The notes under the pieces: generated by a model | Seen by the model: the letters and a program-made list of their open reading frames with translations, nothing else | What the model was told of the DNA's origin: nothing | The model's database searches: none | In this document: piece after piece, positions 2,553 through 58,075 of the stretch | Layout of the letters: every line of letters begins with the position of its first letter | Numbering within the stretch: the first letter of the stretch is position 1 | Position numbers and translations under genes: made by a program | Assembly (NCBI GenBank): GCA_016927865.1 | Contig: JAFGLU010000008.1 | Coordinates: 1-64,000, forward strand | Direction: 5' to 3' | DNA length: 64,000 bases | Source of the DNA: Anaerolineaceae bacterium | GTDB taxonomy: Bacteria > Chloroflexota > Anaerolineae > Anaerolineales > Anaerolineaceae

Positions 2553-2692
2553 TCAATTTAAATCCTGGGCGTTAGCTTCATTCTCGGGAATAATGTCGCC
2601 CGGAATAAAATTAGCCGTGACAGCTCGCTGGGTTTCTCTGTCTCGGCGGTGTCAATCTTCCAAATGATTTCAAATGCCCTAAGGATTTTCAC
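2553..2692 (-). pseudogene. Frameshifted short paralogue of the 846-1436 N-terminus
   Basis: A GTG start with AGGA just upstream overlaps the end of the ATPase gene. It opens MKILRAFEIIWKIDTAETEK, then shifts frame to TQRAVTANFIPGDIIPENE and stops. Joined, it aligns with EIKQAFETIREAATAELEKT and QRAGAAYFTQGD of the downstream winged-helix gene. The DNA also matches (TTTCAAATGC and CTCGGCGGTG blocks at 2630-2672 and 1385-1424). One missing A in GAGAAA-CCC explains the shift. It may instead have been only a short peptide gene of 46 codons. Confidence 0.5.
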
Positions 2693-8136: not shown

Positions 8137-8137
8137 A

Positions 8138-11100: not shown

Positions 11101-11557
11101 GCAGGTTGGCCTGACGGACAGAGCGGATATCGACCTTTTGCTCAATCCATTCGGCGCATTCTCGAGCAACGCGGCGCTGTTCGAGGCGGTTGGTCAGCTT
11201 CAACCCATCGTCCTCGATCTTGTAGGCTTTTTTGTCGGTCTTGTCGGGGTCCAGCGACTTGACGAAGCGCGGCTCGCCGAACAAGAAGCGGAGGTGTTCA
11301 ATCACATCCAGTTTGTCTTTCAACGCTTCATAGGCATAAATCGTAAAGTATGCGGAGACAATCGAGAGCACGGATCCGTCTTTGATTTTTTCGGTGAGAA
11401 AATCGGCGACGCTGCCACGTTTGAAGTTGTCACGGATGCCTGAGGTGGGAATGGGAGGAGGGAACAAATCCAAAACAATCTCCTGTTGGTTAGAACGATC
11501 ATTTCTCCGGCCAACAACCGGGAGAAGGAGGGTACTCTCTATTACCGAGCATCCCAT
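8138..11557 (-). CDS. PLD-domain SNF2-type helicase (Hma-type)
   Basis: 1139 aa. Residues 154-175 (HGKMYHI ... GSSNFT) form a phospholipase-D-like motif. A superfamily-2 helicase follows: SVGLGKT at 304-310, DESH at 394-397, SATPVNN at 439-445. The second lobe has ISEGQNLQ (842-849) and QRFGRIDRIG (868-877). It is the first gene of a three-gene run with methylase and ATPase. The start is uncertain: the listed ATG has no clear ribosome site, whereas a TTG about 28 codons in (LDLFPPPIP) has CAGGAG 6 nt upstream. DISARM DrmD is also a SNF2 helicase, but drmA/drmB are absent here. Confidence 0.88.
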   Translation of the reverse strand: MGCSVIESTLLLPVVGRRNDRSNQQEIVLDLFPPPIPTSGIRDNFKRGSVADFLTEKIKDGSVLSIVSAYFTIYAYEALKDKLDVIEHLRFLFGEPRFVKSLDPDKTDKKAYKIEDDGLKLTNRLEQRRVARECAEWIEQKVDIRSVRQANLLHGKMYHIANGGVEEAILGSSNFTVSGLGMANHNNNIELNLIVDSNRDQRDLKAWFEELWNSEELVEDVKADVLSYLAQLYQDNSPEFIYFKTLFHLFEQFLSDQDKGGLSDIKNQIVDTDIWKALFEFQQDGVKGAINKILAYNGCILADSVGLGKTYEALAVIKYFELRNDRVLVLCPKKLRENWTVYQAQNNSELNPFLRDRFNYTVLSHTDLSREKGRTGDIDLANINWGNYDFVVIDESHNFRNNTPGKRDEEGNVVRRSRYQRLMEDIIQQGVKTKVLLLSATPVNNDLKDLRNQIYFLTENCDDAFDGPLGISSIKDTLAAAQRTFTEWAKSSPEHKTKDLLQQLSSAFFKLLDALTIARSRKHIQKYYQDNIALLGGFPARLKPISVFPDIDLAGEFMSYDTLNEDISNYRLSLFNPSEYLIDEHRSKYDVKYAKEQPNLFDRRLTDKFSQRVREHFLIGMMKVNFLKRLESSVHSFDITMRRTIDKIDGLMDRIQRFQRFQAENPDLDFEDLMITDVDDEELQDALEVGKLKFKMAHIELDRWLKDLRHDRDQLHKLELSAREITAARDAKLAELKKLIENKVKHPSTDKSGRPNRKLLVFTAFADTADYLYKALHAWATQELGIHIAMVSGGSTENKTSFGKNEFNQILINFSPHAKNRAKMRSMPQDQEIDLLIATDCISEGQNLQDCDMLINYDIHWNPVRVIQRFGRIDRIGSINSAVQLVNFWPTQDLDKYISLKNRVEARMALVDIAATNEDNLLSNDELQELIKEDLKYRDKQLKRLREEVLDLEDFNEVVSLTDFTLDDFRAELSRYIEANRQLLNDAPLGLYAIVPTDPQYPIIRPGVIFCLKQKGDTTGSEAVNPLQPYFLVYVLEDGSVRLGFTQPKQILEVFRALCVGKTAAIETLCAQFNEATQNGDDVSHYSELLEKSIFWIEKTFKKRVVGNLIADRGAVIPDKSKQVSKSTDFELITWLIIC

Positions 11558-13050: not shown

Positions 13051-13114
13051 CGGGTAGGGCCAGGAACCAGGATTCGGAACACAGAATCCAGGAATCAGGA
13101 TCCAGAATCCGCCA
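13051..13114. repeat. 64-bp block after the variable region, copy 1
   Basis: About 90 percent identical to 16049-16112 by eye, in the same orientation and at the same place relative to the NACHT 3' ends. Made of short alternations of GATTC, CCAGG and their complements. In this copy it encodes the last residues and stop codon of the NACHT gene; in the other copy it lies just after the stop. Confidence 0.75.
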
Positions 13115-15866
13115 GGGAGAGAACAAGCCGAAAACCGATATAGTAGTAGAAGTCGTCGGGGCCGCTCCTGAAGCGGAAGGCACAGCGCGCGAGCCTAACA
13201 GCGCTGCGCCACGAGCCGCCGCGCAACACATTCCTAGAGCCTTCTTTACTGCGCGTCCACTCAAACACATTCCCACTCATGTCCCAGGCTCCAGACAGGC
13301 TGACTCCTTGCGGATAAGTGCACACCGCGGTTGTGCCTAAGCCGCCCGACTCGCGCGTGTTCGCAAAGCGCTGATCAAACGCATCTCCCCAGGGAAATTC
13401 GCGCCCGTCTGTCCCGCGCGCGGCTTTCTCCCACTCCTGCTCGGTGGGCAGGCGCGCGATACACCCCTCGGGCAGTTGTCCAGCCTGGCGCATCTGTTCC
13501 GACCGCCAGGCGGCATAGGCTTCGGCTTCATACCAGCTCACGCTCACCACCGGGAAGATAGGGTTGTTCCAGGTCGAATCATCCCAGTAGCCAGGCTGAG
13601 TTCTTTGTTCTTGTTCTTTCCACTCCCACCCGGCTTTGCTCCAACAGCGGTGTGTCTTGTGCCCGCCGGCGGCGATGAATTCGCTATACTGGGCATTGGT
13701 AACCGGGAATTGGGCGATCCAATAGGCATACGGGATATTGTGCGGCGTTTTATCGTCGCCATACAGAAATGTCCCCGCCGGGATTTCGATGAACTGCTCC
13801 AATCCTTCCGGCTTCCAGCCCAACGCCCCTAGCGAGAAGCCGGCGCTTCTACGTAAACGTTTTTCCACATCCGCGTTTTGCATGGTCGTGATCAACGCTT
13901 CGATGACTTTTTCCAGGCTGGGCTTGCCAATCCCCACGGCGCGGGAATCGCAGGCCGCTTCGCCCGCCAGGGCCACCGCCGCGCCGGGCTCGCCAGGCTG
14001 CTCGGTCACCAGCTTTTCCAGCACTTTTCCGGCCACTCCCGGCATTTGCTGGATCAGGCCCACATAGCCCACCGCCAGGAGGGCCACCTCGCGCCAGGCA
14101 GGGTCGCCCACATGGTCTTTGATTTGCTCAAAGATCACATCGGGCTGCCCTTCGGCCTGCAAGGCCATGCCCACCCCCGCCAGGTATTCCTCAAAGGTCA
14201 GGTGGATGAAGCCGTATTCGCTCGGGCCGCGCTCCAGCAGCAGAGCGGTGTGCTCGTGCACGTCTGCCAGAAAATCGCGGGCTTTCTTCTCCGCGTTTTC
14301 TTCGCCGCGGTTTTCAAACAACCTCTTCAACTCACGCAGCAGATCTTCGCGCTTGACCAGCCCCACCCCGGGGCTGACGGTGTGCATCCACAAGGCCAGC
14401 GGGGCCAGCAGCCGCACCGTCTCAACCACATCCAGGTCGCGCCCCACCGCCCGCCCGGTCATGCTGCGCGCGCGGTTCCAGGTGGACAGCATCGTGCGCA
14501 CGTACTGCTCGTACAGTTCCACGCGCCGCTCCGGCAGGGTCACGCCCTGGCGCTTCATCACCGCCAGGATGGTGAGCAGCAGCGGGTTGGACGCCAGCCG
14601 CCGGACACCTTCGCTGCGGTTAACGGCATCGATCAACTCTTTGCTTTCTTTGTCGGCATCGAACCTGGCGGCTGCCCCCTCTCCCTGGGCCTGCTGCTCC
14701 AAAATGGCGGTCCATTTTTGGGCGAACTCGCCGATCTCCTCGTCGTCAAAATCTACCAGGGTGGCTTCCACCAACCCCTCCGCCGCCAGGCGCGCATCGC
14801 GATAGCCGACCACCCGGCTGGTGAGGACGAACTTATTGCCCTTGTTCTTGTGAACAGTGAAGTAGTTGACCACCCGCTCGACGACCGTGTGGCGCATGTC
14901 CAGGTTCTTGACTTCGTCCAACCCATCGAGAAGTACCAGCGCGTTGCCATCCTTCAAAGCAGCGCGCAGCATCTCGCCCACGGGCCAATCCTGGCAGGTC
15001 TGGCAAAAGTACTCTTCAATGAACTGGTCCAGGCGCATCTCAGCTTTCTCGAGCTGGTTGGCGTACGCCGCCAGCGGAATTAACACCGGCAGCTGCCCTC
15101 CCAGGCCCAAGGCTTCCCCTTCTCCCAGGGCGCACTTCACCGCCAAAAATTTGAGAAAAGTGCTCTTGCCCGCGCCGGGATCGCCCAGCAAGATCAGGCC
15201 GCCGTTCTCGCCCAGCAGTTCGACAACCGGCTGCGGTTGAGAATACTTCAACGGCTCTTCCTCATTCGCCTTCAACTTCCGCCCTGCCAATCGCACTTCG
15301 GCGGTCCAGGTTTCTCCACCTTTGGGCAGTTCTCGCCTGGCCTTCAGCGGCACGTACAGGCCCATGAGCGGTACGCGCATTTCGATGGTGTCGCTGGGGC
15401 CAAAGCCCTTGAAGCTCAAGAAGCGGTAGCGTTCGGCCACAAACGCCAGGTAGGCTTGTTGGGTTTGGGCAGCCGACTCGGCGGGCGGCCTGGCGGGCGG
15501 GGGAGTCGATCCGGTTTGGATTGTGACCGGGCCATTTACTTGGCCGAAAACCACTGAGTTATCCCCTGCTTGGGTCACATCATCCCGTCCGGTGAATTTG
15601 CCCCCGCCGGTGTTTACATCACCGCCAATATACGTTCCCTCAGCACGGATCGAGGCAGCAGCAGGAGTGCTCTTCTGGAACAGCTTGAACCACCCCAGGA
15701 TGCCTGAGACAAGGAAGAAGACGATCGACACCAGGGCTTCAGCGCCTTGAATCAGATCGGAATTCGGCGCGATCCATTTTGTCAGCGGCTCCAACCAGAA
15801 GATGGCCGTGCCCCCGACGATCAAGATAAAAAGAATGAGTACGATCCATGGCAATTTGGCTTTCAT
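13095..15866 (-). CDS. Membrane-anchored NACHT ATPase with FGE-sulfatase/C-lectin-fold C-terminus
   Basis: 923 aa. Two hydrophobic segments lie at ~5-28 and ~41-63, then a glycine-rich motif GTYIGGDVNTGGGKFTGRD at 77-95. The NACHT module has P-loop GDPGAGKST (228-236), Walker B LVLLDGLDEV (310-319) and sensor-like FVLTSR (~346-351). A helical region follows. Residues ~692-916 form an FGE-like domain (IPAGTFLYGD, RLPTEQEWEKAARG, WDMSGNVFEW, RGGSW). FGE-like domains of STAND ATPases are thought to act as ligand sensors, and the fold is used by DGR variable proteins. GGAGGCGGG precedes the start. Likely a membrane-tethered NLR-like immune sensor. Confidence 0.85.
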   Translation of the reverse strand: MKAKLPWIVLILFILIVGGTAIFWLEPLTKWIAPNSDLIQGAEALVSIVFFLVSGILGWFKLFQKSTPAAASIRAEGTYIGGDVNTGGGKFTGRDDVTQAGDNSVVFGQVNGPVTIQTGSTPPPARPPAESAAQTQQAYLAFVAERYRFLSFKGFGPSDTIEMRVPLMGLYVPLKARRELPKGGETWTAEVRLAGRKLKANEEEPLKYSQPQPVVELLGENGGLILLGDPGAGKSTFLKFLAVKCALGEGEALGLGGQLPVLIPLAAYANQLEKAEMRLDQFIEEYFCQTCQDWPVGEMLRAALKDGNALVLLDGLDEVKNLDMRHTVVERVVNYFTVHKNKGNKFVLTSRVVGYRDARLAAEGLVEATLVDFDDEEIGEFAQKWTAILEQQAQGEGAAARFDADKESKELIDAVNRSEGVRRLASNPLLLTILAVMKRQGVTLPERRVELYEQYVRTMLSTWNRARSMTGRAVGRDLDVVETVRLLAPLALWMHTVSPGVGLVKREDLLRELKRLFENRGEENAEKKARDFLADVHEHTALLLERGPSEYGFIHLTFEEYLAGVGMALQAEGQPDVIFEQIKDHVGDPAWREVALLAVGYVGLIQQMPGVAGKVLEKLVTEQPGEPGAAVALAGEAACDSRAVGIGKPSLEKVIEALITTMQNADVEKRLRRSAGFSLGALGWKPEGLEQFIEIPAGTFLYGDDKTPHNIPYAYWIAQFPVTNAQYSEFIAAGGHKTHRCWSKAGWEWKEQEQRTQPGYWDDSTWNNPIFPVVSVSWYEAEAYAAWRSEQMRQAGQLPEGCIARLPTEQEWEKAARGTDGREFPWGDAFDQRFANTRESGGLGTTAVCTYPQGVSLSGAWDMSGNVFEWTRSKEGSRNVLRGGSWRSAVRLARCAFRFRSGPDDFYYYIGFRLVLSLADSGS
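13116..13223 (-). other. Candidate DGR variable region of the first NACHT gene
   Basis: Codons from RGGSW to VLS at the end of the FGE domain. Residues differing from the second NACHT protein cluster at positions encoded here by NNC/NNT (CGC, AGC, GCT, CTC, TTC, TTC, GGC, TAC, TAC, TAT). Intervening framework codons (GGC TCG TGG, CGC TGT GC, CCC GAC GAC TTC, ATC GGT) are identical. This is what adenine mutagenesis of AAY template codons would leave. No reverse transcriptase or template is in the window. Confidence 0.5.
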
Positions 15867-16116: not shown

Positions 16117-19100
16117 TCAAGTGCCCAGTGCGGGGGAGAGAACAAGCCGAATACCGATGTCGCTGCGGAAGTCGTCGGGGTCGCTCCAATCGCGGACTGC
16201 ACAGCGTGTGTTCCTCTGAATATCGTCCCACGAGCCGCCACGCAATACTCGGATCGCATTTTCACTCACGTGCAGGCGGTGCGATTGGCGAATATAGGGA
16301 TATGGGCGGTAACCGCTCAGCATCCATTCACTCACGTTCCCCGAAAGCTCCATGATCTCTTCGGGTGTTGCGCCGTGGGGGTACATACCGACCGGGCTGG
16401 AGTGGCTGATATTGCTGTTGCCAATATTAGCACTTTCCTCGTCCCAGTCTGCGTTGCCCCAGGGATACCTGCGCCTGTCCGCCCCCCGCGCGGCTTTCTC
16501 CCACTCCGCCTCCGTCGGCAGCCGAGCAACGATCTTTTGTGCTGCCAAGTCACGCCATAAGCGTTTGGCATCTGGATTCTCCGCTCTAGCTATAAGCTGA
16601 TCGCGAAGCATCCCGAAGGGGCCGCTGAGAGCTGACAGCTTCTGATTCACCCACTTTGCATACGCCATTGCCTCAAACCAACTCACGCCTATCACCGGGC
16701 GGGTGGGAGTAGCAAGTTGATCTTGCCACCAGTACGGTGCGCCGCGCTGCTTCAACTTGCGCACTGTCAGCCAATCGCGGAAAATCCTGTCTTCTACTTT
16801 GCTGTCATATTTTCCGGTGCGCCAATCCCAACCGGTCTGGCTCCACCATTCCTGGTTTTCATAACCCTGCTCCTGCACGAAATGGGCATATTGCCCCACC
16901 GTTACCGGGTAACGTGCCATCCAGTAATCGTAAGAGATCAAGAGCGGCTCGGGATTGCCATACTCGTTATCAAAAGCGCCTTCCTCCCCTTCCCGGCTGC
17001 CCATGATAAACAGCCCGGCGGAAATGCGTACGAACCCCAGACTTTCCTCCGGCTTTCCGCGGAACAGCGCCGGCAGGCCCATAAGGTTGGGGGCAAAGCG
17101 CGGGTCGCCCAGCTTGCCCAAGATGTCGCCCGCTTCAGCCCGCTCGCGGGCCGGCAGGCGGCCCTCTTCCACCAGGCGTAATAACCAGCGGCGCAGGCGC
17201 TTGACCAGCACGCCGGTTTGTTCGTCGCCCGCGGCCCGCTCCTGCAAGCGCAGCTCCAGCAGCGCCGTGCCTGCCAGCGCCGCCCGCCGCCAATGCGAGT
17301 CCTCCACTTGCTCGAGCTCCTCGGGCGTGCCCGGAACGAGCGCTTGCAAGGTGCTCAAGGCCTGTCCCTCGCCACCCTGGCGCACCTTGCCAATGGCCAA
17401 CAGGATCACCTCGCGCCACCATTCCAGCGAGTTTCCCGCCAGTACGCAAATACGAGTGTGGAAATCGGCCTGGTTGGTCAGATGGCAGCCTGCCAGGTAT
17501 TCCTGGAAGGAGCGATGGGGGAAGGAATAGATACCCTTCTCCCGAGCAACTAACAGTCCCGAGCGGCGGTCAAGATATTCCACTACCACATCTGTTTTCA
17601 GATCAACGGGGGTGGCTTTGCCAAGGATTTCCAGGATTGTACCCAACGGGATATCCGCAGGGGCATCTTCGCCCCGGCTGTCTTCGTCCAGCAGCCCTTG
17701 TTTTTCGTGCACTTCATAAGCCAGGCGCGCCATGCCCGAGCGCAGGTCGCGCTCATCCATCCCCAGCACACGCAAAATGCCATAATCGACCAGGGGCTTT
17801 CCGTCCGGGTCTTCGGTGATGCTCTGGCGCTGCCATTGGGTCAGCAACAACTGTACCGATTGCTCATACAGGTCGGCGCGGTCTTCGGGCAGGCGCTTTT
17901 GGCTGGCGTTCAGCCCGGCGATCAAGGTCAGGAGCAGCGGGCGAGAGGCCAAATCGGCCAGGTAACGGCGCTGCCACATCACAGCCAGCAAACCGTTGGC
18001 TCGCGCTTTGGTCTCAATCTCGTCCCATTGCAAAACCGAACGGGCGGCTTTATACCATTGGCGCACGAAACCCTCCACCTGCTCTTTGCTGAAGGGCGCC
18101 AGCGCCAGGATATCGAACCTGGGCAACTGCCAGCGGGGGTCGGCGTAAGCGTAGGGCCGGGCGGTGAGAATGGCACGGGAAGATTTGGGGATTTCACTCA
18201 GGAAGGACTGGATTGCTTGCAGTAGGCAGGCACGCCGCCGCCCGGCTTCGGGTACCTCATCCAGGCCGTCCAGTAGCAGCAAGAGCGGACCTTTGTCCAT
18301 ACGCGCCTGAAGGCCGATCAGAGCCCACTTGGCGGCTTCCTGGCCGAGCAGATCCACCATGTGCGCCTGGATGGTCTCCCACAACATGCCGGACGTGCCG
18401 CATTTGGCTTCTAGTGGGATATGCCGAGCCGCTTTGCGCAATACAATGCGCAGCGGCAAGTACCCCCGGATTGCCTTGGGCAGTTTTTCGGTCTCGCCGG
18501 TCAAGATGGACTGCGCCAGGCGGTAGGTGAGGTAGTTGACGAAGCTGGTTTTGCCCGACCCGGCATCCCCCAGCAAAGCCAGTCGCTTATTCTTGGCCTC
18601 GCAGACCACCTCCATCAACGGCGCGCGGCTTTCACCCTGACCAAGCGCCAGGCGGCGTCCAAACTGGCGGTGGTCTTCCGTTCTATCGTTGGGAGCGCTG
18701 ATCACGTCCAGGTCGGTGTACACATCCGCCAGGCGCAGGGTGTCCTGCTGCAAGGGGGAAGGCGCCAGGCGCGGGTCGATCACACCCAGGGGTAGGTGGC
18801 TGCACTCTTCCGCCAGCGCGCGCAGGTAAGCGCGTAGGAACAGGTCGCCGATCTGCTCGCCGGAGACTTCCAGGCGGTTGCCTTCGCCCACGACGATGAT
18901 CATACCGCTGGCATTGCCCTCAATGGTAACACTGCGATTGACAATGCCCTGGATGAAGGGGTCCAGGCGGGTAGAGGATACCAGTTGCGAGTTGCCCTGG
19001 GCGAGTAGTTGCTGTTCAAGCCCAGCATACTCAGCTCTCAGTGCAGATATTTTGGTGTCTACGATCTCATTACCCAGGTCGGAGCGCAGATTCTCATAGC

Positions 19101-19155
19101 TGCTGATCTTCCTGGTGATTTCGTCCAAACGATTGCGTAAGTCGTCCATGCTCAT
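16117..19155 (-). CDS. NACHT ATPase with coiled-coil N-terminus and FGE-sulfatase/C-lectin-fold C-terminus
   Basis: Start taken at MSMDDLRNRL (GGGGGC upstream); the frame extends 18 codons further. Residues 1-55 are coiled coil, followed by a short beta-like stretch (VTIEGNASGMIIVVGEGNRLEV). P-loop GDAGSGKT is at ~196-203 and Walker B LLLLDGLDEV at ~292-301, then ILTARPYAY. A helical region leads to an FGE-like domain from ~730 (RISAGLFIMGSREG, VIGVSWFEAMAYAKW, RLPTEAEWEKAARG, MELSGNVSEW, RVLRGGSW). Unlike its neighbour it has no membrane segment. The two proteins share architecture but little sequence outside the ATPase and the C-terminal tip. Likely an NLR-like sensor. Confidence 0.85.
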   Translation of the reverse strand: MSMDDLRNRLDEITRKISSYENLRSDLGNEIVDTKISALRAEYAGLEQQLLAQGNSQLVSSTRLDPFIQGIVNRSVTIEGNASGMIIVVGEGNRLEVSGEQIGDLFLRAYLRALAEECSHLPLGVIDPRLAPSPLQQDTLRLADVYTDLDVISAPNDRTEDHRQFGRRLALGQGESRAPLMEVVCEAKNKRLALLGDAGSGKTSFVNYLTYRLAQSILTGETEKLPKAIRGYLPLRIVLRKAARHIPLEAKCGTSGMLWETIQAHMVDLLGQEAAKWALIGLQARMDKGPLLLLLDGLDEVPEAGRRRACLLQAIQSFLSEIPKSSRAILTARPYAYADPRWQLPRFDILALAPFSKEQVEGFVRQWYKAARSVLQWDEIETKARANGLLAVMWQRRYLADLASRPLLLTLIAGLNASQKRLPEDRADLYEQSVQLLLTQWQRQSITEDPDGKPLVDYGILRVLGMDERDLRSGMARLAYEVHEKQGLLDEDSRGEDAPADIPLGTILEILGKATPVDLKTDVVVEYLDRRSGLLVAREKGIYSFPHRSFQEYLAGCHLTNQADFHTRICVLAGNSLEWWREVILLAIGKVRQGGEGQALSTLQALVPGTPEELEQVEDSHWRRAALAGTALLELRLQERAAGDEQTGVLVKRLRRWLLRLVEEGRLPARERAEAGDILGKLGDPRFAPNLMGLPALFRGKPEESLGFVRISAGLFIMGSREGEEGAFDNEYGNPEPLLISYDYWMARYPVTVGQYAHFVQEQGYENQEWWSQTGWDWRTGKYDSKVEDRIFRDWLTVRKLKQRGAPYWWQDQLATPTRPVIGVSWFEAMAYAKWVNQKLSALSGPFGMLRDQLIARAENPDAKRLWRDLAAQKIVARLPTEAEWEKAARGADRRRYPWGNADWDEESANIGNSNISHSSPVGMYPHGATPEEIMELSGNVSEWMLSGYRPYPYIRQSHRLHVSENAIRVLRGGSWDDIQRNTRCAVRDWSDPDDFRSDIGIRLVLSPALGT
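16135..16242 (-). other. Candidate DGR variable region of the second NACHT gene
   Basis: Counterpart of the first variable region. Differing codons are again mostly NNC/NNT (GAC, GAT, ATT, AAC, GTC, GAT, GAC, CGC, AGC, GAC), while the flanking framework is conserved to the nucleotide over runs such as CCCGACGACTTC and CGGCTTGTTCTCTCC. Confidence 0.5.
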
Positions 19156-19254
19156 GCCCCCGGTGAAAGTTATATGATTGATTGTAGCCAAATCCAAGGG
19201 GCGGGGCAAGAAAAACGAATTGATTGTTGTGTGAGGATAGCGAAGTTCTACTTA

Positions 19255-19323
19255 ACGATGGTGCTGCCTGAATCAGCGCAGCCCGCCTTCGGCGGCCTTC
19301 GCTGATTCAGGCAGCACCATCGT
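19255..19323. repeat. Long perfect inverted repeat at the left edge of the mobile element
   Basis: 24-bp arms (19255-19278 and 19300-19323) are fully complementary. The 21-nt spacer has an inner hairpin CCGCC-TTC-GGCGG. It lies between the NACHT gene and the first element gene, and the reading frame of that gene stays open into it. Could be a cruciform, an element end or a regulatory hairpin. Confidence 0.85.
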
Positions 19324-19333
19324 TCCCAGGGTT

Positions 19334-20488
19334 GTGTGGGTGTATGCGCGAGACCCATACGACCTCATTTTCTGGTACATGGTGAAAACCATTGCCGGCG
19401 AGTCGGGCGAGTGTTTCATCAACACCGAGCAGCTGGCCGAGCTGTGCATGATGTCTGAGGGCAAGATCGCAGACTGCCGCAAGTATTGGCTGTCCACACG
19501 CCTGCTCACGGGCAAGCTGGAGAAGGTCGACAATTCCCCCGAAGGCTACAAGGTGTGGCATTTGACTGATCCCGACGTGTGGGACCAGAACAACCGCTGG
19601 GGAACCGAGTACAGCACGCTCCAATCCAGGGTTGACCTGAAGCGTGACCAACGGCTCAACGGGAACGGGTGGAAGTCTGAGAACCAGCGCATGTGTCCCA
19701 GGTGCGGAGAGATGTTCACTATCACCGGCCCACAATCGGTTCGATGCGAGAACTGCTCGAGAGCGCACAATATCGAGAAGAACCAGGTGTGGCGCAAACT
19801 CGGGACAAAGACTGTCAACGTTCCGGGCGCAAGTTGCACGATTGTTGGGTGCGAAAACACCAATCTCGAATATCACCTCCCCTCCCCCAAGGAAGAGCCG
19901 GTGATATTGTGTGTTGATCACCACAACGAGCTGCATCGGTTGGAAGCCGAGAATGACCGAGCGGCTTATGACATGAACCGATCGGAAAATCCACCGAGCG
20001 GCTTAACACATGAATCGAGCGGCTTATCACATGAATCAAGCGGCTTATCAGGTGAATCGAGCGGCTTATCACGTGTGGTTAAAGAATATCCATTTAAGAA
20101 TATCCAAGAAGAAAATCCAGGAAGAATGGCTGCGCCAGGGTCCATTCTGGAGCTTTTCTATCGACAATCTTCTTCAGGGGAGGCTGATAACTTCCATGAG
20201 GTTTCTAATCGGTGGCGCATGGTTATGGCCGAGGCGGGAGTCCGGATAGAGGATATTCAAACACCCATGATGGTGTATCCAAAGAACGGGTCGCTCCCCT
20301 CTTATCAATGGCCCGACGACGATTGGATTAGCATCAGCCACGATTGGGACCTCAATGTCTTCAAGGATGATAACGTCCTGCGCATGGCCATCTACCCCGT
20401 TGTGGGCGGGCAGACCAAAACCGAGAAAGCCGCCTGGTCTTACCCCGAACAACAATCTCACTTAACTCCTACACATAGGAGCATTTAA
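19334..20488 (+). CDS. Replication-initiator-like winged-helix protein, probably 5'-truncated
   Basis: Listed from a GTG at VWVYARDPYDLIFWYMVKTI. The frame is open without a better start through the upstream inverted repeat to a stop at 19253-19255, and the sequence before the GTG (TIVPRV) reads as if the domain continued. The N-terminal ~80 residues look like a winged helix (EQLAELCMMSEGKIADCRKY), as in phage/plasmid initiators. A Cys4 zinc finger (CPRCGEMF ... CENC) and a second Cys/His cluster (CTIVGCEN ... CVDHH) follow. The middle encodes SSGLSHE repeats whose DNA looks like iterons. The last codons and the TAA come from a palindrome. A role in starting element replication is inferred. 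Confidence 0.6.
   Translation: MWVYARDPYDLIFWYMVKTIAGESGECFINTEQLAELCMMSEGKIADCRKYWLSTRLLTGKLEKVDNSPEGYKVWHLTDPDVWDQNNRWGTEYSTLQSRVDLKRDQRLNGNGWKSENQRMCPRCGEMFTITGPQSVRCENCSRAHNIEKNQVWRKLGTKTVNVPGASCTIVGCENTNLEYHLPSPKEEPVILCVDHHNELHRLEAENDRAAYDMNRSENPPSGLTHESSGLSHESSGLSGESSGLSRVVKEYPFKNIQEENPGRMAAPGSILELFYRQSSSGEADNFHEVSNRWRMVMAEAGVRIEDIQTPMMVYPKNGSLPSYQWPDDDWISISHDWDLNVFKDDNVLRMAIYPVVGGQTKTEKAAWSYPEQQSHLTPTHRSI
19958..20078. repeat. Five iteron-like 21-bp direct repeats (candidate replication origin)
   Basis: Units start at 19958, 19995, 20016, 20037 and 20058, with consensus beginning CGAGCGGCTTATCACATGAA. The last four are head-to-tail; the first is set 37 bp upstream and so is translated in another frame (RAAYDMN against SGLSHES). 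Conservation across frames says the DNA, not the peptide, is kept. AT-rich sequence follows (20079-20120). Repeats inside an initiator gene followed by AT-rich DNA is the layout of the lambda O origin. Confidence 0.65.
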
Positions 20489-20506
20489 CTCCTACGTAGG
20501 AGTTAA
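20462..20506. repeat. Double palindrome, copy 1 (inverted orientation)
   Basis: A degenerate palindrome followed by a perfect one with half-site TTAACTCCTAC. Reverse complement of the arrangement at 21368-21412 apart from a few bases. It overlaps the 3' end of the preceding gene and supplies its TAA stop. Confidence 0.85.
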
Positions 20507-20521: not shown

Positions 20522-20869
20522 ATGCCCTACATCCGACTAGACCCCATCAACCTGGTAGTAATCAGAGCGACCAACGCGGCCGTGAGAATGAAATACACCT
20601 GTCCTGTTTGCGGCCACAAGGACTGGCGGGCATTTGAGGAACCTTATCGTGACCCGGTCACCGGCAGTCTCGTTATCACGCATGTGTGCGAGAACTGCCG
20701 GAAGTACCGAATATCAGCCTCGATCTGCAGGATTGGAGAACAGTTTGTTGAAGAAGGAGGAACATGGACGGAGACAGGGCTTATATCGTGTTTGACGACG
20801 AGTCGATCCAGAATTTGCTGGAAGGCTTTGACGCGCGAGGTGTTCAGGGAGAAATCTCAGCTCGAATAG
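20522..20869 (+). CDS. Zinc-finger small protein
   Basis: Begins shortly after copy 1 of the double palindrome, with AGGAG upstream. A four-Cys zinc finger (CPVCGHKDW ... CENCRKY) fills residues ~27-62. The last ~35 residues overlap the next gene by over 100 nt and look like out-of-frame translation, so the functional part is probably the N-terminal 80 residues. Element-encoded zinc-finger proteins of this kind are common and uncharacterised. Confidence 0.5.
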   Translation: MPYIRLDPINLVVIRATNAAVRMKYTCPVCGHKDWRAFEEPYRDPVTGSLVITHVCENCRKYRISASICRIGEQFVEEGGTWTETGLISCLTTSRSRICWKALTREVFREKSQLE

Positions 20870-21111
20870 AGAAAGAGGAATTCGATGGGGTTTCATCCAG
20901 CGAGATCGCCTATTCCCTTGGAGTCGAAGTGTTGCAGCACAGGGAGAATAACAGAATATTGCTCTCCATAATAGCTAGGATCGAATCGATTAAAGATCGC
21001 AAGGCCGAAATGGAGCTGGGCGCCTTTGCGTCCGTGATCGACGAAGTATCCCAAGATCTGAAGGAAATCCTGGGCGATATCAACGACGCGACTCCAGCAC
21101 CGGAGGATTGA
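20764..21111 (+). CDS. Hypothetical element protein (115 aa)
   Basis: AGAAGGAGGAAC gives a strong ribosome site before the ATG although the gene begins inside the previous one. Acidic, helical, no known motif (VSSSEIAYSLGVEVLQHREN ... VIDEVSQDLKEIL). Its TGA overlaps the next ATG by one base, so these two are translationally coupled. Function unknown. Confidence 0.6.
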   Translation: MDGDRAYIVFDDESIQNLLEGFDARGVQGEISARIEKEEFDGVSSSEIAYSLGVEVLQHRENNRILLSIIARIESIKDRKAEMELGAFASVIDEVSQDLKEILGDINDATPAPED

Positions 21112-21371
21112 TGCCAGAGATCACAAATGAGTACATCGAAGAACTGATCGAGGCGACTGAGAAGGATGGCGGCGAGTCTGCCGCCATCCTCAGATCGCTC
21201 TTGCTGGAGCTGTTGGAGCTGAGAAAGACGACCAATGACCTGGCGCAGCTGAGCAAGAGATATCCGAGGAAGATTGTAGACATGACGATTGGCCTACAAG
21301 GGTTTGGTACTTTGCCACAATGGGCATATAGCGTTCAAGCTATTTTGGAGCGTAAGAATGGAGGGATTTAA
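21111..21371 (+). CDS. Hypothetical element protein (86 aa)
   Basis: ATG chosen over an upstream TTG because GGAGG lies 4-5 nt before it and it overlaps the preceding stop (TGATG). Helical N-terminal half (EYIEELIEATEKDGGESAAI). The final ATT-TAA is formed by copy 2 of the double palindrome. No recognisable domain. Confidence 0.6.
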   Translation: MPEITNEYIEELIEATEKDGGESAAILRSLLLELLELRKTTNDLAQLSKRYPRKIVDMTIGLQGFGTLPQWAYSVQAILERKNGGI

Positions 21372-21412
21372 CTCCTACGTAGGAGTTAAACACTCCTGTA
21401 TGTAGGAGTTAA
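21368..21412. repeat. Double palindrome, copy 2
   Basis: Perfect palindrome with half-site TTAACTCCTAC, then a degenerate second palindrome (CACTCC ... GTAGGAGTTAA). Provides the stop codon of the preceding gene. Confidence 0.9.
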
Positions 21413-21450
21413 GAGAGGGAGACAGTAGAGATTGAATCAGGAGTGAGTAG

Positions 21451-21735
21451 ATGCCAAAGTTAAAAATACCAACAGCTAGCATAGGCAAACCGCTTGTTGA
21501 TTGTAGTTTCTCGGATTTTGTGCCGGTCATTCTATTTATGGACTTGCCGGTCGGCGCATGGTTCGTGTTCGTGAACAAGCGTGTATCAACCGAAATCGTT
21601 GGGGAACACCCAACCGAAAGGAGTCCGTATTTGAAGGTGACCTTTGAGTTATTTGTAACCTGGTCGGATCGGCAGACGGCTTATGCTGCGCTGCTGACCG
21701 AAAAGGTAATTGAATGCCAACCTGGTTTGTATTAG
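21451..21735 (+). CDS. Hypothetical element protein (94 aa)
   Basis: AGGAG lies 8 nt before the ATG. Mixed alpha/beta protein with a hydrophobic stretch (FVPVILFMDLPVGAWFVFV) that is probably a buried strand pair rather than a membrane segment. No recognised family. First gene after copy 2 of the double palindrome. Confidence 0.5.
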   Translation: MPKLKIPTASIGKPLVDCSFSDFVPVILFMDLPVGAWFVFVNKRVSTEIVGEHPTERSPYLKVTFELFVTWSDRQTAYAALLTEKVIECQPGLY

Positions 21736-21793
21736 GGAGGTGACATAGTGAATTGATTATGACCTGTTCGAATAAGACGACTTCACAGCTCCT

Positions 21794-21822
21794 ACCTGTG
21801 TGGACATAATGTCCACACAGGT
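21794..21822. promoter_or_regulatory. Perfect 14-bp inverted repeat, possible operator
   Basis: Arms ACCTGTGTGGACAT and ATGTCCACACAGGT around a single A. Located about 85 bp upstream of the next gene and not followed by a T-run, so an operator is more likely than a terminator. Confidence 0.5.
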
Positions 21823-21908
21823 CTATGCGAACGAATTGACGTTGAGATTAGAAACCTTTTTTGTGGAAGTGGCTTTGTAAAACACCAGGTATCAAATTGG
21901 AGGTATGT

Positions 21909-22250
21909 ATGGCAGAGAAGGGATATTCGAGAGCATTGGATCTCTTCAGGAAGTTCAACCCTGAACGAGTGGCGGATTCGCCATCAACGACGGAGCTGTT
22001 CGATTGGCTGGTAAACCAGATCGAACGAAGTCCGTGTTACACACGTGCGTCAAGCGGCAGAATTGATTTGGATGGACGGAAATACCAGATCGCCGCTGAG
22101 TATGGGTGTTCAATTCGCTTTCTGTTATTGGAGCCAACGACACTGAAGCCGGCAACTACCCCGACAAAGAAGGGGATAATCGCCTGGATCGACTGGCTGA
22201 TGGATCGGATGTGCCAGTTGGGCTGCTCTTTTTACCACGAGTGGCATTGA
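21909..22250 (+). CDS. Hypothetical element protein (113 aa)
   Basis: Start chosen at MAEKGYSRAL because TTGGAGG lies just upstream; the frame is open 16 codons further. Contains FRKFNPERVADSPSTTELFD and IIAWIDWLMDRMCQL, a mixed alpha/beta pattern of no known family. Preceded by the 14-bp inverted repeat, which may control it and the following gene. Confidence 0.5.
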   Translation: MAEKGYSRALDLFRKFNPERVADSPSTTELFDWLVNQIERSPCYTRASSGRIDLDGRKYQIAAEYGCSIRFLLLEPTTLKPATTPTKKGIIAWIDWLMDRMCQLGCSFYHEWH

Positions 22251-22287
22251 TATTCGATGAGAGAAGGTCTGTAATAGAGGAGGAACG

Positions 22288-22671
22288 ATGTCCCTGTCTA
22301 AGCATGATTTTATTGACATGTTGTCGCAAGAGCTTGCAGAAAGCCCTAACAAGGAACAATTACTGGCTTACGCCAAAGAGTTGATCCCCGGTCCCTGGAT
22401 GCTAAGGCAACTCAAATCACTCAATAGCCGGAAGGTGCTCAGAGCTAATGCTGCGTACGCCGAGTTTCATCCCGAATTGCAAGGGGAAAAACATACGATC
22501 GACCAGGTCGTGGATTGGTTGATGGATGCCGGCGCAGTACCTTATGCCAGGGCTTTGGAAAAACGCCTAGAGAGGATCAAGGTCTTACTGGAACCCTATG
22601 GAATCACTGACCCAGATTTAGAGTACACCATCTCAGGTGCCCTATTGATCCGTATAAGAGCAAATGCATGA
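22288..22671 (+). CDS. Hypothetical helical element protein (127 aa)
   Basis: GAGGAGGAAC precedes the ATG. Almost wholly helical (FIDMLSQELAESPNKEQLLA, ARALEKRLERIKVLLEPYG). It is followed by an intrinsic terminator, so it ends a transcription unit. No motif recognised. Confidence 0.55.
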   Translation: MSLSKHDFIDMLSQELAESPNKEQLLAYAKELIPGPWMLRQLKSLNSRKVLRANAAYAEFHPELQGEKHTIDQVVDWLMDAGAVPYARALEKRLERIKVLLEPYGITDPDLEYTISGALLIRIRANA

Positions 22672-22719
22672 TGCCCCCTATCTAATCAGAGAGATACGGT
22701 AGCCCTTATATTCACATAG

Positions 22720-22763
22720 AAGGCCAGGAGGAATATACACCCTCCTGGCCTTTACTTTTTTTG
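22720..22763 (+). terminator. Intrinsic terminator
   Basis: Perfect 12-bp stem AAGGCCAGGAGG / CCTCCTGGCCTT with a 9-nt loop, followed within 3 nt by a run of T. It closes the small-gene cluster of the element. Confidence 0.9.
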
Positions 22764-23101
22764 ACGGTTTTATTTTGCCGGGTAATACCTCTGTAATGGA
22801 AGTACAAGATTTCCTGAGTTTCCCCCCTTGTTAGTGGTGTTTCCATGGAAGTTACAAATTTCTCTTTAGATGCATATGGTACTTGATCGGCTCATATTCA
22901 CGTAATAAATAGGCTTTAAGGCTTAACTCCTACGTTGGAGTTAAGCCTTCGCGTAAGGTGTGGATTTTTCATCCCCCTGTGCATTCCCCGAAATTCGTCG
23001 AAAAGTGGGAAATGGTCGCTGTCTTGTAAAATACATTATTGAACATAAGTCCTATATGGGATTGTTGTGCACATATCACCGCTTTAGAAAGGATCTACAC
23101 C
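22764..23101. other. Intergenic region upstream of the excisionase-like gene
   Basis: About 340 bp with no supported gene. It contains the single palindrome copy at 22923-22944 and presumably the promoter of the downstream HTH gene; no clear -35/-10 pair was assigned. Confidence 0.4.
22923..22944. repeat. Single palindrome of the TTAACTCCTAC family
   Basis: One palindrome with one centre mismatch; its flanks extend complementarity outward (AAGGC ... GCCTT). Lies in a non-coding region about 160 bp before the excisionase-like gene. Confidence 0.8.
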
Positions 23102-23305
23102 ATGGTTTCCAAATTACTTCGTGCAGAAGAGATCGCTTCCCTTTTAGGGGTATCTAAGTCGTTCGTTTACAAGCTAATACGAGAGAGGAATCTCAAGTCT
23201 GTGCACCTGGGATCATCTGTGCGGGTACGTGAAGAAGACTTAGAAGAATTCGTTGTCTCGTCTGTGGATGGTCGCAATTCTCCACCAATTGCTGAGGAGA
23301 TCTAG
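23102..23305 (+). CDS. Excisionase-like helix-turn-helix protein
   Basis: 67 aa; start at MVSKLLRAEEIASLLGVSKS with AAAGGA upstream. The whole protein is a MerR/AlpA-type HTH_17 domain (EIASLLGVSKSFVYKLIRER ... SSVRVREEDLEEFV), the fold of excisionases that assist tyrosine integrases. Being in the same element as an integrase, it probably directs excision or regulates the element; substrate site unknown. Confidence 0.8.
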   Translation: MVSKLLRAEEIASLLGVSKSFVYKLIRERNLKSVHLGSSVRVREEDLEEFVVSSVDGRNSPPIAEEI

Positions 23306-23434
23306 TTCCTGCTGCGCATTGTTATAGCGGAAGACTAAACATGGGCGACTCATTTATTGGCGAACATGTTTGGGCTCAATCGATACCTTAGTGGAATTTA
23401 AAACGTCGGATTTTGTTTGAAGAGAGGTCAAGAC

Positions 23435-25024
23435 ATGTCACGCACCACGATTAATGCTGCATTACGGTTCTTAGATACAGTCGTGTTAATTTCTCACAAC
23501 ACGACTATCCCCGAGGAAAAGCTTACCGAAGAAAATGGTTGGAAAAAGGGAAAGCGTCCTGGTGCGAATGGTTTCTATTTTGTTCATTCTTTCGAAACCA
23601 GGACAACGGGTGCTAATGTCTTTGTGAAGTATTACGAGCCAACGAAATATAACCTGGCAAGCATTTCCCTTTCGTTTTCGGTTCCGAAGGTTTATCAGGG
23701 GAATAATATTGTAAACATCCCTCAAGATGCTGACATACTTTCGGCACTATATGAGGAAGTATATAATCCATTATTTGATTGGCTAGATGAGCCTGTTCCC
23801 TTTGTAGAAGAGGCGGTATTTGGCCGCATCGATATTAGTGTAAATCTGATTGTGAGAAAAGATCTGTTGCTCGACTACCTGGAGGTTGCGAAATTAAACT
23901 ATCTGTCCAAGTATAGGCGAGGGCCGTATAACAACAACGACACCAAAACCCATAAGAATGGAGATGATAATGGGGTCACATATGAGATAGAGAAGAATCG
24001 AATATCTTTATACGACAAGTTGCTTGAGGCGGGATTAGAAAAAAATGATGGTGCATTGAGACTTGAGGATTCAAGTACGAGCTTGCAATACATTGGATTC
24101 AAATTTGGGGTAAGGAGTTTACGAGTGAAGGATTTACTACCGCGGATGTGTATTGATTTACTTCGTAAGGATCTTTGCCTGCTGCGGTTAGATATTCCTA
24201 GGACCGCAGAAAAAAGCTCTATGGCATTTTCTGAGTACTGTAGGTTTAGCAGATTTAAAATTATCATGGATATTGTAGATTACATCAGGGAATATCCAGG
24301 AGTTTCTAAAAAGGAGATAGCATCGCATTTTGGGATTACACGAAGAGCATTGAATAAGCATTTTAAGATTATCGAAAAATACGACTTGCTTTATTCGTGC
24401 TCGTGCAAAAAACCTTTGCGAGCTCTAACCCTCGATGAGAATGGGATGCAGGAAGTATATGTAGATGACCGATTTGTTCCCGATAATCACTATGATATTT
24501 CACTTCTGCTGAGCGGAGGTGATAATGATTTATCCTCGTCCGGAAATGGGATCCAAACCGAAAAGAATGTGGATGAGGGGCAAATTGTGAATGGATCTCA
24601 GTCTTTTGCGCGAGATGAGATATCAAGAGACATAGACACAACCTTCGGTTGTGAGTTTGATGATAGAAAGATTCTTGAACCTTGCGTATTGGATGTGCCG
24701 GCAAAAGATGGCTCAATTGACTCAAGAGTGTGTATTGAAAGTAACGTTCATGAAACCAATAATGCTGAAAACAAACCTCTCAAAGATCATGTCATTCTCC
24801 AAAACGATATTGTTAACGCCACTTCATTGGACGTGGGGTTGTGTTCTCCGCTTACAATTTGGACAATGGAGACGTCTGGAAGTGTTCAAGTAGGTAGTAA
24901 CAACAGAAGAAGAAAAGAAAGAGCGGGGAGAGAAAAGGCGCAGAATGCAAGTAGCTCTAAGAAAGATAAGATGAATAAGCTTATTTGCCGTGAGGGAAGC
25001 CTAGCTCCACCTGCCGCTTTATGA
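23435..25024 (+). CDS. Phage/plasmid-type replication protein with C-terminal HTH
   Basis: Start at MSRTTINAALRF with GAGAGG upstream. The core (FGRIDISVNLIVRKDLLLDY ... VTYEIEKNRISLYDKLLE) has the pattern of replication-initiation proteins of small plasmids and filamentous phages (RstA/gene II-like). A helix-turn-helix follows (SKKEIASHFGITRRALNKHF). The last ~170 residues are low-complexity and acidic. The gene is noticeably AT-richer than its surroundings, a sign of transfer. It likely nicks or initiates replication of the excised element; the family assignment is by pattern only. Confidence 0.65.
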   Translation: MSRTTINAALRFLDTVVLISHNTTIPEEKLTEENGWKKGKRPGANGFYFVHSFETRTTGANVFVKYYEPTKYNLASISLSFSVPKVYQGNNIVNIPQDADILSALYEEVYNPLFDWLDEPVPFVEEAVFGRIDISVNLIVRKDLLLDYLEVAKLNYLSKYRRGPYNNNDTKTHKNGDDNGVTYEIEKNRISLYDKLLEAGLEKNDGALRLEDSSTSLQYIGFKFGVRSLRVKDLLPRMCIDLLRKDLCLLRLDIPRTAEKSSMAFSEYCRFSRFKIIMDIVDYIREYPGVSKKEIASHFGITRRALNKHFKIIEKYDLLYSCSCKKPLRALTLDENGMQEVYVDDRFVPDNHYDISLLLSGGDNDLSSSGNGIQTEKNVDEGQIVNGSQSFARDEISRDIDTTFGCEFDDRKILEPCVLDVPAKDGSIDSRVCIESNVHETNNAENKPLKDHVILQNDIVNATSLDVGLCSPLTIWTMETSGSVQVGSNNRRRKERAGREKAQNASSSKKDKMNKLICREGSLAPPAAL

Positions 25025-25158
25025 AACGGTGGAAATTTCAGCGCTGTATTAAGTACTTGGTATTTACTGTCCTTTGCGCATATTCTATTCGCATAGTCTG
25101 AGGTGGTGGTATAATGCCATAGAACAAATAGCCTATTTTCCTGGCTTAGGAGGTTTCT

Positions 25159-26343
25159 ATGGCCCGAAGACGTAGCAATAACGAAGGGAGCATCTACCAG
25201 CGCAAAGACGGACGTTGGGTTGCTCAACTTTCTGTGGATGGGAAACGGCTGAGTAAATATTTCAAGACCCAGCGAGATGCTCGGGCTTGGGTCAAAGAAA
25301 TGCAAACCAAGATAAACGAAGGCCTCACATATCTGGGAATGAATGTCACCCTGGAGGAGTACCTGAAAGAATGGCTACTGACCACAAAAATGACCCTCCG
25401 CCCAAAAACCTTCATTCAATACACTCAAATTGTCAACCAGCACATCCTGCCGGCTTTAGGTTCTCGGAAGTTGCAGGATATTCGCCCGGATATGATCCAG
25501 ACCTGCTACAACCACTGGATAGCGCAAGGGATGAGTGCCAGGACCGTTCGGCTCAACCATGCTGTGCTTCACAAAGCACTCAACCATGCGATGAAGCTGG
25601 GGATGATCGGGAGGAACCCAACAGACCTGGCTACCAAGCCCAGAATCACAAAAACTGAGATGAAAACCTTCGATGATACCCAGGTGCGCACTTTCTTGCT
25701 TGCTGCGCAAGGTGCCCGCTTATATGCGTTGTTTAATTTGGCATTGACAACCGGACTTCGCCAAGGCGAATTGCTGGGCTTGAAATGGTCTGATATTGAT
25801 TGGAATACCCGCAAAATCAGTATTCAGCGACAGGTTCAGAGGTTGAGGGGGCAGGGGGTGATATTCAGCGAACCAAAGTCAAGTGCCGGCCGCCGAAAGA
25901 TCGCCATTGGCAAACAAACGGTTGAAGTGCTCAGAACACACTATCAACAGCAGCAAATAGAACGAGAATTCGCTGGAGATCGCTGGGTTGAAAATGATCT
26001 GGTGTTTCCTTCGACCTTGGGCACCCCTCTGGATTCCCGCAATCTCTTCCGAATATTCAAGGAAATTCTTCAGCAGACCTCGTTGCCAAACATCCGATTT
26101 CACGATTTGCGCCACACTGCGGCGACATTGCTCCTGCAGCAAAATGTTCACCCGAAAGTGGTGCAGGAACGATTGGGACACTCAGATATCAGCCTGACCT
26201 TGAACACCTACTCGCATGTGGTTCCTGGGATGCAAGAAGAGGCTGCGGATAAGATGGATGAGCTGCTGACCATGACCGATGTGTCTGATGCATTAGGAAA
26301 CCCACCTGTTCGCCAAGAATCCATAAAGAAAACGCGGGTTTAA
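25159..26343 (+). CDS. Tyrosine recombinase/phage-type integrase
   Basis: 394 aa with TTAGGAGG before the start. An AP2-like N-terminal DNA-binding stretch (GSIYQRKDGRWVAQLSVDGK) is followed by a SAM-like core-binding domain (TLEEYLKEWL). The catalytic domain has Arg in TTGLRQGELLGLKW, HDLRHTAATLLL, GHSDISLT and Tyr in LNTYSHV, so all the R-H-R-H-Y residues are present. It should integrate and excise this element; the attachment sites were not found. It faces the convergent TPR gene across copy 3 of the double palindrome. Confidence 0.95.
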   Translation: MARRRSNNEGSIYQRKDGRWVAQLSVDGKRLSKYFKTQRDARAWVKEMQTKINEGLTYLGMNVTLEEYLKEWLLTTKMTLRPKTFIQYTQIVNQHILPALGSRKLQDIRPDMIQTCYNHWIAQGMSARTVRLNHAVLHKALNHAMKLGMIGRNPTDLATKPRITKTEMKTFDDTQVRTFLLAAQGARLYALFNLALTTGLRQGELLGLKWSDIDWNTRKISIQRQVQRLRGQGVIFSEPKSSAGRRKIAIGKQTVEVLRTHYQQQQIEREFAGDRWVENDLVFPSTLGTPLDSRNLFRIFKEILQQTSLPNIRFHDLRHTAATLLLQQNVHPKVVQERLGHSDISLTLNTYSHVVPGMQEEAADKMDELLTMTDVSDALGNPPVRQESIKKTRV

Positions 26344-26716
26344 TGTCGGCATTTTACTTGGTGAATGGATTGGCGGCCTGAGAATTTATTCGGTGGTTAT
26401 TGAAGTCATTAACTCCTACGTAGGAGTTAAGCACTCCCATGTGTTGGAGTTAATCCGAAACACTGGAGTGGTTTTGAATAGTCATTTACATCAGATAATC
26501 AAATTGGTCTTTTCGTTTGCTTTCCATTGGTTGGCTAAATCAGGGGGTGTTAAAGGTGATTTTCAAGGCAATTTAGGTTGCCGTCAAAGTTTTCGCTTGT
26601 CAGGTTTAGAGAATTTTGACTTCTCAGTACTCAGCAATGAAAGTGTTTGAGGCGAGTTCAGATGCTTATAGTAGTCTGAGATACGACAGGCTTATTTCAA
26701 TCAAAACATGTGCCGG
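26344..26716. other. Intergenic region between integrase and TPR gene
   Basis: About 370 bp between convergent genes. Holds copy 3 of the double palindrome; otherwise no ORF, tRNA fragment or direct repeat to the left edge of the element could be recognised. Confidence 0.4.
26409..26453. repeat. Double palindrome, copy 3
   Basis: Same order as copy 2: perfect palindrome, then the degenerate partner (CACTCC ... TTGGAGTTAA). Located about 65 bp after the integrase stop, between convergent genes, where it may serve as a two-way terminator or mark the right end of the element. Confidence 0.9.
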
Positions 26717-31657: not shown

Positions 31658-31704
31658 AAACAGTACTTGTGGGGGTTGCGGCGTAGCACCCCGCCATATT
31701 TAGG

Positions 31705-31776
31705 TGATCCACCAGGGACTCGAACCCTGAACCTGCTGATTAAGAGTCAGTTGCTCTACCATTGAGCTAGTGGACC
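31705..31776 (-). tRNA. tRNA-Lys (anticodon CTT)
   Basis: 72 nt folding as a cloverleaf: acceptor GGTCCAC / GTGGATC, D-stem GCTC / GAGC, anticodon stem CTGA / TCAG with loop CTCTTAA (anticodon CTT), T-arm with GTTCGAGTC, discriminator A. CCA is not encoded. Its 3' end points toward the accessory region, the orientation expected if the tRNA is an integration target. Confidence 0.93.
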
Positions 31777-53658: not shown

Positions 53659-53696
53659 AGCTTTTCTCAACCTCGGTGAGTAGATACGACAGAGCA

Positions 53697-58072: not shown

Positions 58073-58075
58073 CTG

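Follow-up and report, generated by a model that had tools for sequence, protein, structure and literature searches.

Replication origins that lie inside an initiator gene (O type) are already known and also occur in Gram-positive phages (e.g., TP901-1 and SPP1). In the lambda O gene, as outlined in the relevant parts of two accounts, inverted-repeat iterons in the middle of the gene bind O dimers and the adjoining A+T-rich region of ~40 bp opens (PMC5043065, PMC7466680). In iteron plasmids, as treated in part of the first of these, phased repeats stand next to an AT-rich unwinding region (PMC5043065). We analyzed a comparable gene in a 64,000-nucleotide stretch of DNA (the window) from an Anaerolineaceae bacterium (GenBank assembly GCA_016927865.1, contig JAFGLU010000008.1, positions 1 to 64,000), in which a first-pass annotation had tentatively placed the origin of a mobile element, with the geometry of lambda O, within an initiator-like gene.

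For the gene family to which this gene belongs, we consider it highly probable, judging from sequence comparisons, that the repeats form a replication origin within an O-like initiator gene, after the pattern of lambda O/ori. A broader proposal, toward which we lean with less confidence, is that in a broad initiator family of phages and elements (Chloroflexota and uncultured viruses) the origin is a frame-indifferent 13-bp palindrome, TTCAYNNNRTGAA, which uses two of the three frames and of which the linker protein would be a by-product. What is new is an apparently widespread family with cross-frame conservation at the family level. For neither this initiator family nor Anaerolineae elements did literature searches list a paper on intragenic origins, which does not prove that there is none. 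The window copy itself has at best about an even chance of being active as an origin.

The locus and its relatives resemble lambda O/ori in two ways: the array is internal to the initiator gene, separating its DNA-binding and C-terminal parts, and a region that is A+T rich in composition adjoins the array. In the relatives, the iterons (TTCAYNNNRTGAA) are also inverted repeats; the window unit fits at best 8/10 fixed positions. The locus and its relatives differ in having a 13-bp core at ~21-bp steps rather than 19-bp iterons. Several relatives are, moreover, followed directly by a DnaB-like helicase gene, and two carry a DnaA_N domain, whereas no helicase or loader gene stands beside the window initiator and its protein has no O-like PHROG match. 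The window protein is likewise unmatched by the PHROG O-like and DnaD-like families and has a zinc/HNH-like insert between its helix-turn-helix (HTH) domain and the array, as well as an unassigned C terminus. Iteron plasmids of the P1, RK2, and R6K type share the phased repeats beside an AT-rich region, but here the iterons are palindromic and within coding sequence.

The gene and its repeat array

The gene and the features in it are as follows.

19254 to 19324, no strand: inverted repeat with 34-bp arms (94%) and a 3-nt loop, single copy in the genome
19316 to 19654, + strand: N-terminal winged HTH (HTH_36-like) DNA-binding domain (profile A2, predicted structure, and fold matches)
19334 to 20488, + strand: O-like replication initiator gene, 384 aa from GTG (sequence relatives; open frame from 19256)
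19694 to 19942, + strand: Cys/His-rich zinc-binding, HNH-like insert (C..C...C..C, then C...C...H...LC..HH...H; from sequence and a weak Pfam zinc ribbon match)
19965 to 19977, + strand: iteron 1 core, CTTATGACATGAA, frame 1
20002 to 20014, + strand: iteron 2 core, CTTAACACATGAA, frame 2
20023 to 20035, + strand: iteron 3 core, CTTATCACATGAA, frame 2
20044 to 20056, + strand: iteron 4 core, CTTATCAGGTGAA, frame 2
20065 to 20077, + strand: iteron 5 core, degraded, CTTATCACGTGTG, frame 2
20078 to 20119, + strand: AT-rich region, candidate DNA-unwinding element by composition, with 14-bp repeats at 20079 and 20093

A search of the whole 64 kb with a single unit (GAGCGGCTTATCACATGAA, at most 3 mismatches) gave exactly five matches, at 19959, 19996, 20017, 20038, and 20059. 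By chance, 0.01 matches would be expected per 64 kb, and five were reached in 0 of 100 shuffles. The start-to-start distances were 37, 21, 21, and 21 bp. Relative to the GTG at 19334, the cores at 19965, 20002, 20023, 20044, and 20065 fall in frames 1, 2, 2, 2, and 2 (i.e., core 1 starts on codon position 2 and cores 2 to 5 on codon position 3). The peptide from unit 1 is AAYDMN, and units 2 to 5 give SGL(T/S)(H/G)E or SGLSRV. At the DNA level, unit 1 differs from the consensus at 1/19 positions, not more than the in-frame copies. The search and the frames confirmed the earlier description of five near-identical units in coding sequence, the first in another frame and equally conserved. The 21-bp layout held for units 2 to 5, but not for the first interval (37 bp), and copy 5 is degraded (CACGTGTG).

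AT-rich DNA was also correctly placed directly behind the array by the first-pass annotation: the 40 nt from 20078 are 75% A+T, the maximum among all 40-nt stretches of the gene. Two 14-bp repeats (TTAAAGAATATCCA/TTTAAGAATATCCA) at 20079 and 20093 are 14 bp apart and thus out of codon phase.

Regarding the protein, its N-terminal domain matched profile A2 with an E value of 3.4e-52 (the window sequence is itself part of A2). The structure model had predicted local distance difference test (pLDDT) values of about 91 to 98 for residues 1 to 100 and is reliable for about the first 115 residues only. Fold matches of the modeled domain were generic winged helices, including the DnaD N-domain and a phage O protein, and a profile search of solved structures returned no more than a weak match to a regulator (E 0.24). 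The insert behind the winged helix reads as HNH-like from its sequence; within the collection of relatives described below, it is common to the window and one relative (L002) only. The window array sits behind the HTH domain plus this zinc region.

The palindrome in related initiator genes

Searching every open reading frame (ORF) of the collected loci with an iterated N-terminal domain profile yielded 32 distinct genes. Ten came from protein searches and 22 from DNA-pattern scans, the latter containing the motif by construction. One protein-found gene, L049, is a same-genome paralogue without any repeats; the window replaces it in the 32-row alignment A3. The nearest relatives of the window protein were L002, from a different genome within the same family (BLASTP E 9e-47; 39% identity across 215 aa), and then the IMG/VR contigs L152 and L166 from uncultured viruses (45% over 110 aa; BLASTP E 5e-30 for L152). 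Pfam matches among the A3 rows were HTH_36 (17/32), DnaD_N (3), DnaA_N (2), and DnaB_2 (2). Most of the 32 genes are "replication initiation/O-like" by PHROGs, the commonest single replication-initiation family matching 18/32; PHROG 270/345/391/678 (O-like initiation) and PHROG 186 (DnaD-like loaders) each match 10 to 18 members. The DnaA N-terminal domain occurs in two relatives and is C-terminal in L002. When the entire L002 protein was searched against 396 genomes of the class, 345 genomes were returned, with nearly all matches listed falling on DnaA_N and, it seems, mostly on chromosomal DnaA; the few N-terminal matches were used. L003 and L119 had no tblastn match in named phages.

At least two exact TTCAYNNNRTGAA palindromes were present behind the DNA-binding domain in 29 of the 32 genes, so that the feature is conserved in related elements, as the first-pass annotation had proposed to check. 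The three others were L044 (variant GTCAC...ATGAC, by eye) and L045 and L049 (none). Units occupied two frames of one gene in 16/29. By origin, the protein-found set had units in 7/10 genes, with mixed frames in 2/7, and the pattern-found set had mixed frames in 14/22. In L119, an identical 13-mer (TTCACCACATGAA) is read SPHE, HHM, SPHE, HHM, and L153 alternates as HHM, SPHE, HHM, SPHE. Three genes (L006, L152, and L166) have frames 1222 at spacings of 16, 21, and 21 bp, to be compared with the window frames of 1,2222 at 37 (=16 + 21), 21, 21, and 21 bp. The strict inter-unit spacing of the family has its mode at 21 bp, i.e., two turns of B-DNA, and 16, 19, 20, 22, 23, and 25 bp also occur. 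One of the three frames is closed because frame 0 would put TGA in frame (two frame-0 near-units, in L072 and L108, both have CGA); the other two are both used.

Codon usage pointed the same way. The exact peptide SSGLSHE, whose retention with synonymous DNA changes had been named as the refuting observation, did not turn up elsewhere, and the family peptide SxxE was used instead. In the protein-found genes, to which the codon test was confined (a 28-gene set holding copies of the same genes under other locus ids was not used), the SxxE linker peptide was encoded as TCA...GAA in 24/25 cases; a kept peptide on synonymously changed DNA was absent from these 24. Elsewhere in those genes, TCA accounts for 50/241 Ser codons (21%) and GAA for 147/224 Glu codons (66%), with Fisher P values of 4e-14 and 1e-4. 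These P values overstate the case because units within a gene are nonindependent; the evidence from mixed frames is independent of them. Cross-frame pairs were present in 17 genes, and in these the loosely specified center of 5 bp was 64% identical versus 41% for the flanks (P 0.003), the center being partly specified; cross-frame identity of the whole unit (85%) is inflated, since units are defined by the motif. The palindrome is common to proteins that are just 16 to 39% identical to the first A3 row. These patterns indicate that the family repeat is kept as DNA and that the peptide is secondary.

The rival here is that units in a disordered linker were duplicated in tandem, either neutrally or with selection for the peptide, the frame-shifted first copy of the window being due to recent slippage. 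Against selection on DNA in the window stands the fact that units 1 and 2 have flanking bases in common, so that a recent duplication could account for their cross-frame identity; the step from "other frame" to "selection on DNA" is therefore unsafe from the window alone, where the array could be a tandem duplication. The relatives settle the matter. Although a 21-bp spacing preserves frame and 48 of 71 strict family intervals are multiples of 3, duplication does not fit the mixed frames of 16/29 genes, the fixed TCA and GAA codons, the same palindrome in such divergent proteins, or spacings of 16, 20, 22, 23, and 25 bp, and we regard it as very improbable. The earlier claim of selection on DNA thus stands for the family and not on the window by itself.

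Behind the array, the relatives resemble the window. The 50 nt 3' of the array averaged 62% A+T versus a gene mean of 49% and exceeded their gene in 27/29 cases (P 4e-8). AAAGAA, which is found in the AT-rich region of the window, lies within 25 nt of the array in 20/29 relatives versus 0.7 expected, and L003, L131, L138, and L150 have tandem (T)TAAGAATAACC-like repeats there, like the window. In position and composition, this stretch is that of a putative unwinding element.

Genes 3' of the initiator were checked at 9 loci chosen from a list, and a helicase, loader, or primase was found at 7/9: a DnaB-like helicase in L072, L152, L166, L108, and L160, a DnaC-like loader in L042, and a primase-helicase in L126. 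Another helicase/methylase (L119) and a ParA-like partition protein (L039) were not counted as replication partners. In L039 (G517:C86; 1435 to 3800), an O-like initiator has five iterons, a C-terminal DnaA_N-like stretch (by eye), and the ParA-like gene directly behind it; this is possibly a plasmid-like element.

Taken as an origin, the array would work as follows. The winged-helix domain would bind the iterons in the linker of its own gene, each palindromic unit presumably taking one dimer. Iterons about two helical turns (21 bp) apart would assemble an initiator complex, which would open the AT-rich repeats directly downstream, and the replicative helicase would be brought in by the C-terminal part or, in most relatives, by a partner gene. 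With the iteron required at the DNA level, the sequence of the linker peptide would simply follow from the frame.

The array could instead be an operator, from whose internal units the HTH protein represses its own gene, with no replication start there. Phased palindromes and an HTH domain fit a regulator equally, and the two-unit pattern also occurs in noninitiator contexts. We think this unlikely, since the AT-rich repeats behind 27/29 arrays, the replication genes at 7/9 loci, the O-like and DnaD-like families, and the DnaA_N domains are unexpected of a plain repressor. The same AT-rich repeats and replication genes, together with the iterons, uphold the suggested lambda O geometry at the level of the family; in the window, the usual partner gene is missing.

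Limits of the pattern and state of the window copy

Several counts weigh against reading the palindrome as an origin wherever it occurs. A two-unit scan of the class found it in 13/396 genomes (the backwards pattern gave 0 in every row listed); four of these genomes (G465, G517, G275, and G213) had initiator genes, and the other nine represented other contexts, possibly operators or other repeats. Besides these 9/13 class genomes, 93 of 102 three-unit stretches in the genome_contigs set were without an initiator match, and the majority of arrays in the viral scan fell outside the initiator family. Many genome_contigs matches came from one Alloprevotella assembly and from other Bacteroidales repeats outside the family. 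The set contained 9 distinct initiator genes, 4 of them mixed frame; several duplicate genes already counted (e.g., L257 = G101:C4 and L236 = G465:C5), and the 32 were left unchanged. Also uncounted were ten ORFs whose arrays were mixed frame but which had no profile match at 1e-5; two of them matched replication-initiation PHROGs and eight did not. Because nine class genomes show other contexts, the palindrome alone is nondiagnostic, and an array speaks for an origin only when the HTH domain and the AT-rich neighbor accompany it.

Long arrays of the same palindrome were also observed in nonprofile ORFs of L218, L265 (Cyanobium), and L291. The arrays of L265 and L291 are mixed frame, and neither ORF had a PHROG initiator match.

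A second group of observations counts against the window copy in particular. Its units 1, 3, and 4 fit the family palindrome at 8/10 fixed positions, unit 2 at 7, and unit 5 at 6. Of random 21-mers of the same composition, 3% reach 8/10 (P about 0.03), and we take this as the fair figure; the five copies being nonindependent, no P value was taken from a shuffle test of the window units. The palindrome is broken in the left half of the window unit (CTTA instead of TTCA), and the right half alone is kept. At the 5' end of the gene, the inverted repeat replaces the DxSxDxxYF segment and the start codon of the relatives; the right arm of the repeat extends into the first conserved codons. Given that homology begins at 19316, inside this repeat, and that DxSxDxxYF is missing, the gene start is rearranged. 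The window protein had no PHROG or NCBIfam match, no HTH_36 among the Pfam matches listed, and no tblastn match in plasmid or named-phage collections; a viral scan with this single protein found nothing. The doubled window-like pattern CTTATCANRTGAA gave 0 stretches in the viral scan, and the exact window unit is therefore without DNA-level relatives there. At the array, the GC skew, proposed earlier as a check, had no inflection. The genes scanned at 20522 to 26343 included none for a helicase, loader, or primase; 2.9 kb downstream, the same element has a G2P-like Rep gene beside the excisionase (xis) and integrase (int) genes. The features of the element around the gene are as follows.

20485 to 20506, no strand: 22-bp perfect palindrome TTAACTCCTACGTAGGAGTTAA, copy 1, putative element operator
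21368 to 21389, no strand: 22-bp palindrome TTAACTCCTACGTAGGAGTTAA, copy 2
22926 to 22941, no strand: 16-bp core of the TTAACTCCTACGTAGGAGTTAA palindrome, one mismatch, before the excisionase gene
23039 to 23305, + strand: excisionase-like HTH_17 protein
23417 to 25024, + strand: Phage_CRI (G2P N-terminal)-like Rep, rival initiator (weak Pfam match)
25159 to 26343, + strand: tyrosine integrase
26409 to 26430, no strand: 22-bp palindrome TTAACTCCTACGTAGGAGTTAA, copy 3, 66 bp behind the integrase

The Rep at 23417 to 25024 scored 19.3 bits against Phage_CRI, below the Pfam cutoff of 21.7 (E 0.001, weak), and a winged helix is also present. Among 146 other genomes of the family, it had only two relatives, both weak; it had no tblastn match in named phages, and none in a profile search of solved structures. 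The three TTAACTCCTACGTAGGAGTTAA copies lie at gene borders, and the 22-bp form was found in none of the 146 other family genomes. Together with the core at 22926, the copies at 20485, 21368, and 26409 tie the initiator gene to the integrase module; possibly, they serve the element as a common operator or as a recombination site.

These data bear on a further explanation, namely, that the window copy is a relic of an older prophage and that the element now replicates, if at all, via the G2P-like Rep. Consistent with a relic are the 5' end rearranged by the 34-bp inverted repeat, the divergent unit, the degraded fifth copy, the absence of a helicase or loader partner, and the Rep-like gene beside xis and int. 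Against a relic count a frame open for 410 codons with a coding-type GC content at third codon positions (0.75 before the array), four units and AT-rich repeats that are intact, and the tie to the integrase module by the TTAACTCCTACGTAGGAGTTAA palindromes. We give this explanation a substantial chance, somewhat short of even. As it concerns the window copy, it does not contradict the interpretation of the family feature as an intragenic origin. In favor of the window copy are its open frame, four intact units in the 1-then-2 frame pattern (as in L152 and L166), and an AT-rich maximum in the right place. Quite possibly, it is a member that has been rearranged or has partly decayed, and not the only origin of the element. 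The proposal that the array is the origin of the element thus holds up as a reading of the family, but is weakened for this copy by its rearranged N terminus, the absent partner gene, and the rival Rep.

If the interpretation is right, an odd repeat becomes a testable prediction of the origin and initiator of an integrative element in the Anaerolineaceae, for which few genetic tools exist. The family rule (palindrome spacing, frame use, an AAAGAA-rich neighbor, and an HTH domain ahead) can find candidate origins in uncultured phage genomes and would locate origins of mobile elements that lack a cultured host. The mixed-frame genes would be a clean example of DNA function overriding protein sequence, and frame-indifferent origins would test how far DNA function dictates protein sequence.

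Neighboring genes and other repeats

As a possible attachment site of the element, the sole tRNA (31703 to 31776) found no support: it shared no exact repeat of at least 15 bp with the rest of the window among the matches listed. Beside the element, adjacent genes on the − strand (16117 to 19209 and 13095 to 15866) encode NACHT ATPase and FGE-sulfatase-like proteins without a PADLOC match; they are possibly defense or signaling genes. At lower coordinates, 8138 to 11557 encodes an HKD plus Snf2 helicase protein (PADLOC C3a139; E 6e-128), 4183 to 8136 encodes a large protein with methylase-like motifs (by eye), and 2679 to 4202 encodes an AAA-type protein (by eye). The region from 2679 to 11557 (− strand) is likely a defense island. 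At the other end of the window, a dispersed hairpin family was observed at 53604 to 61681, consisting of 25- to 27-bp inverted repeats with common GGGTGCGAAGCACCC loops at 53604, 54999, 60479, and 61625.
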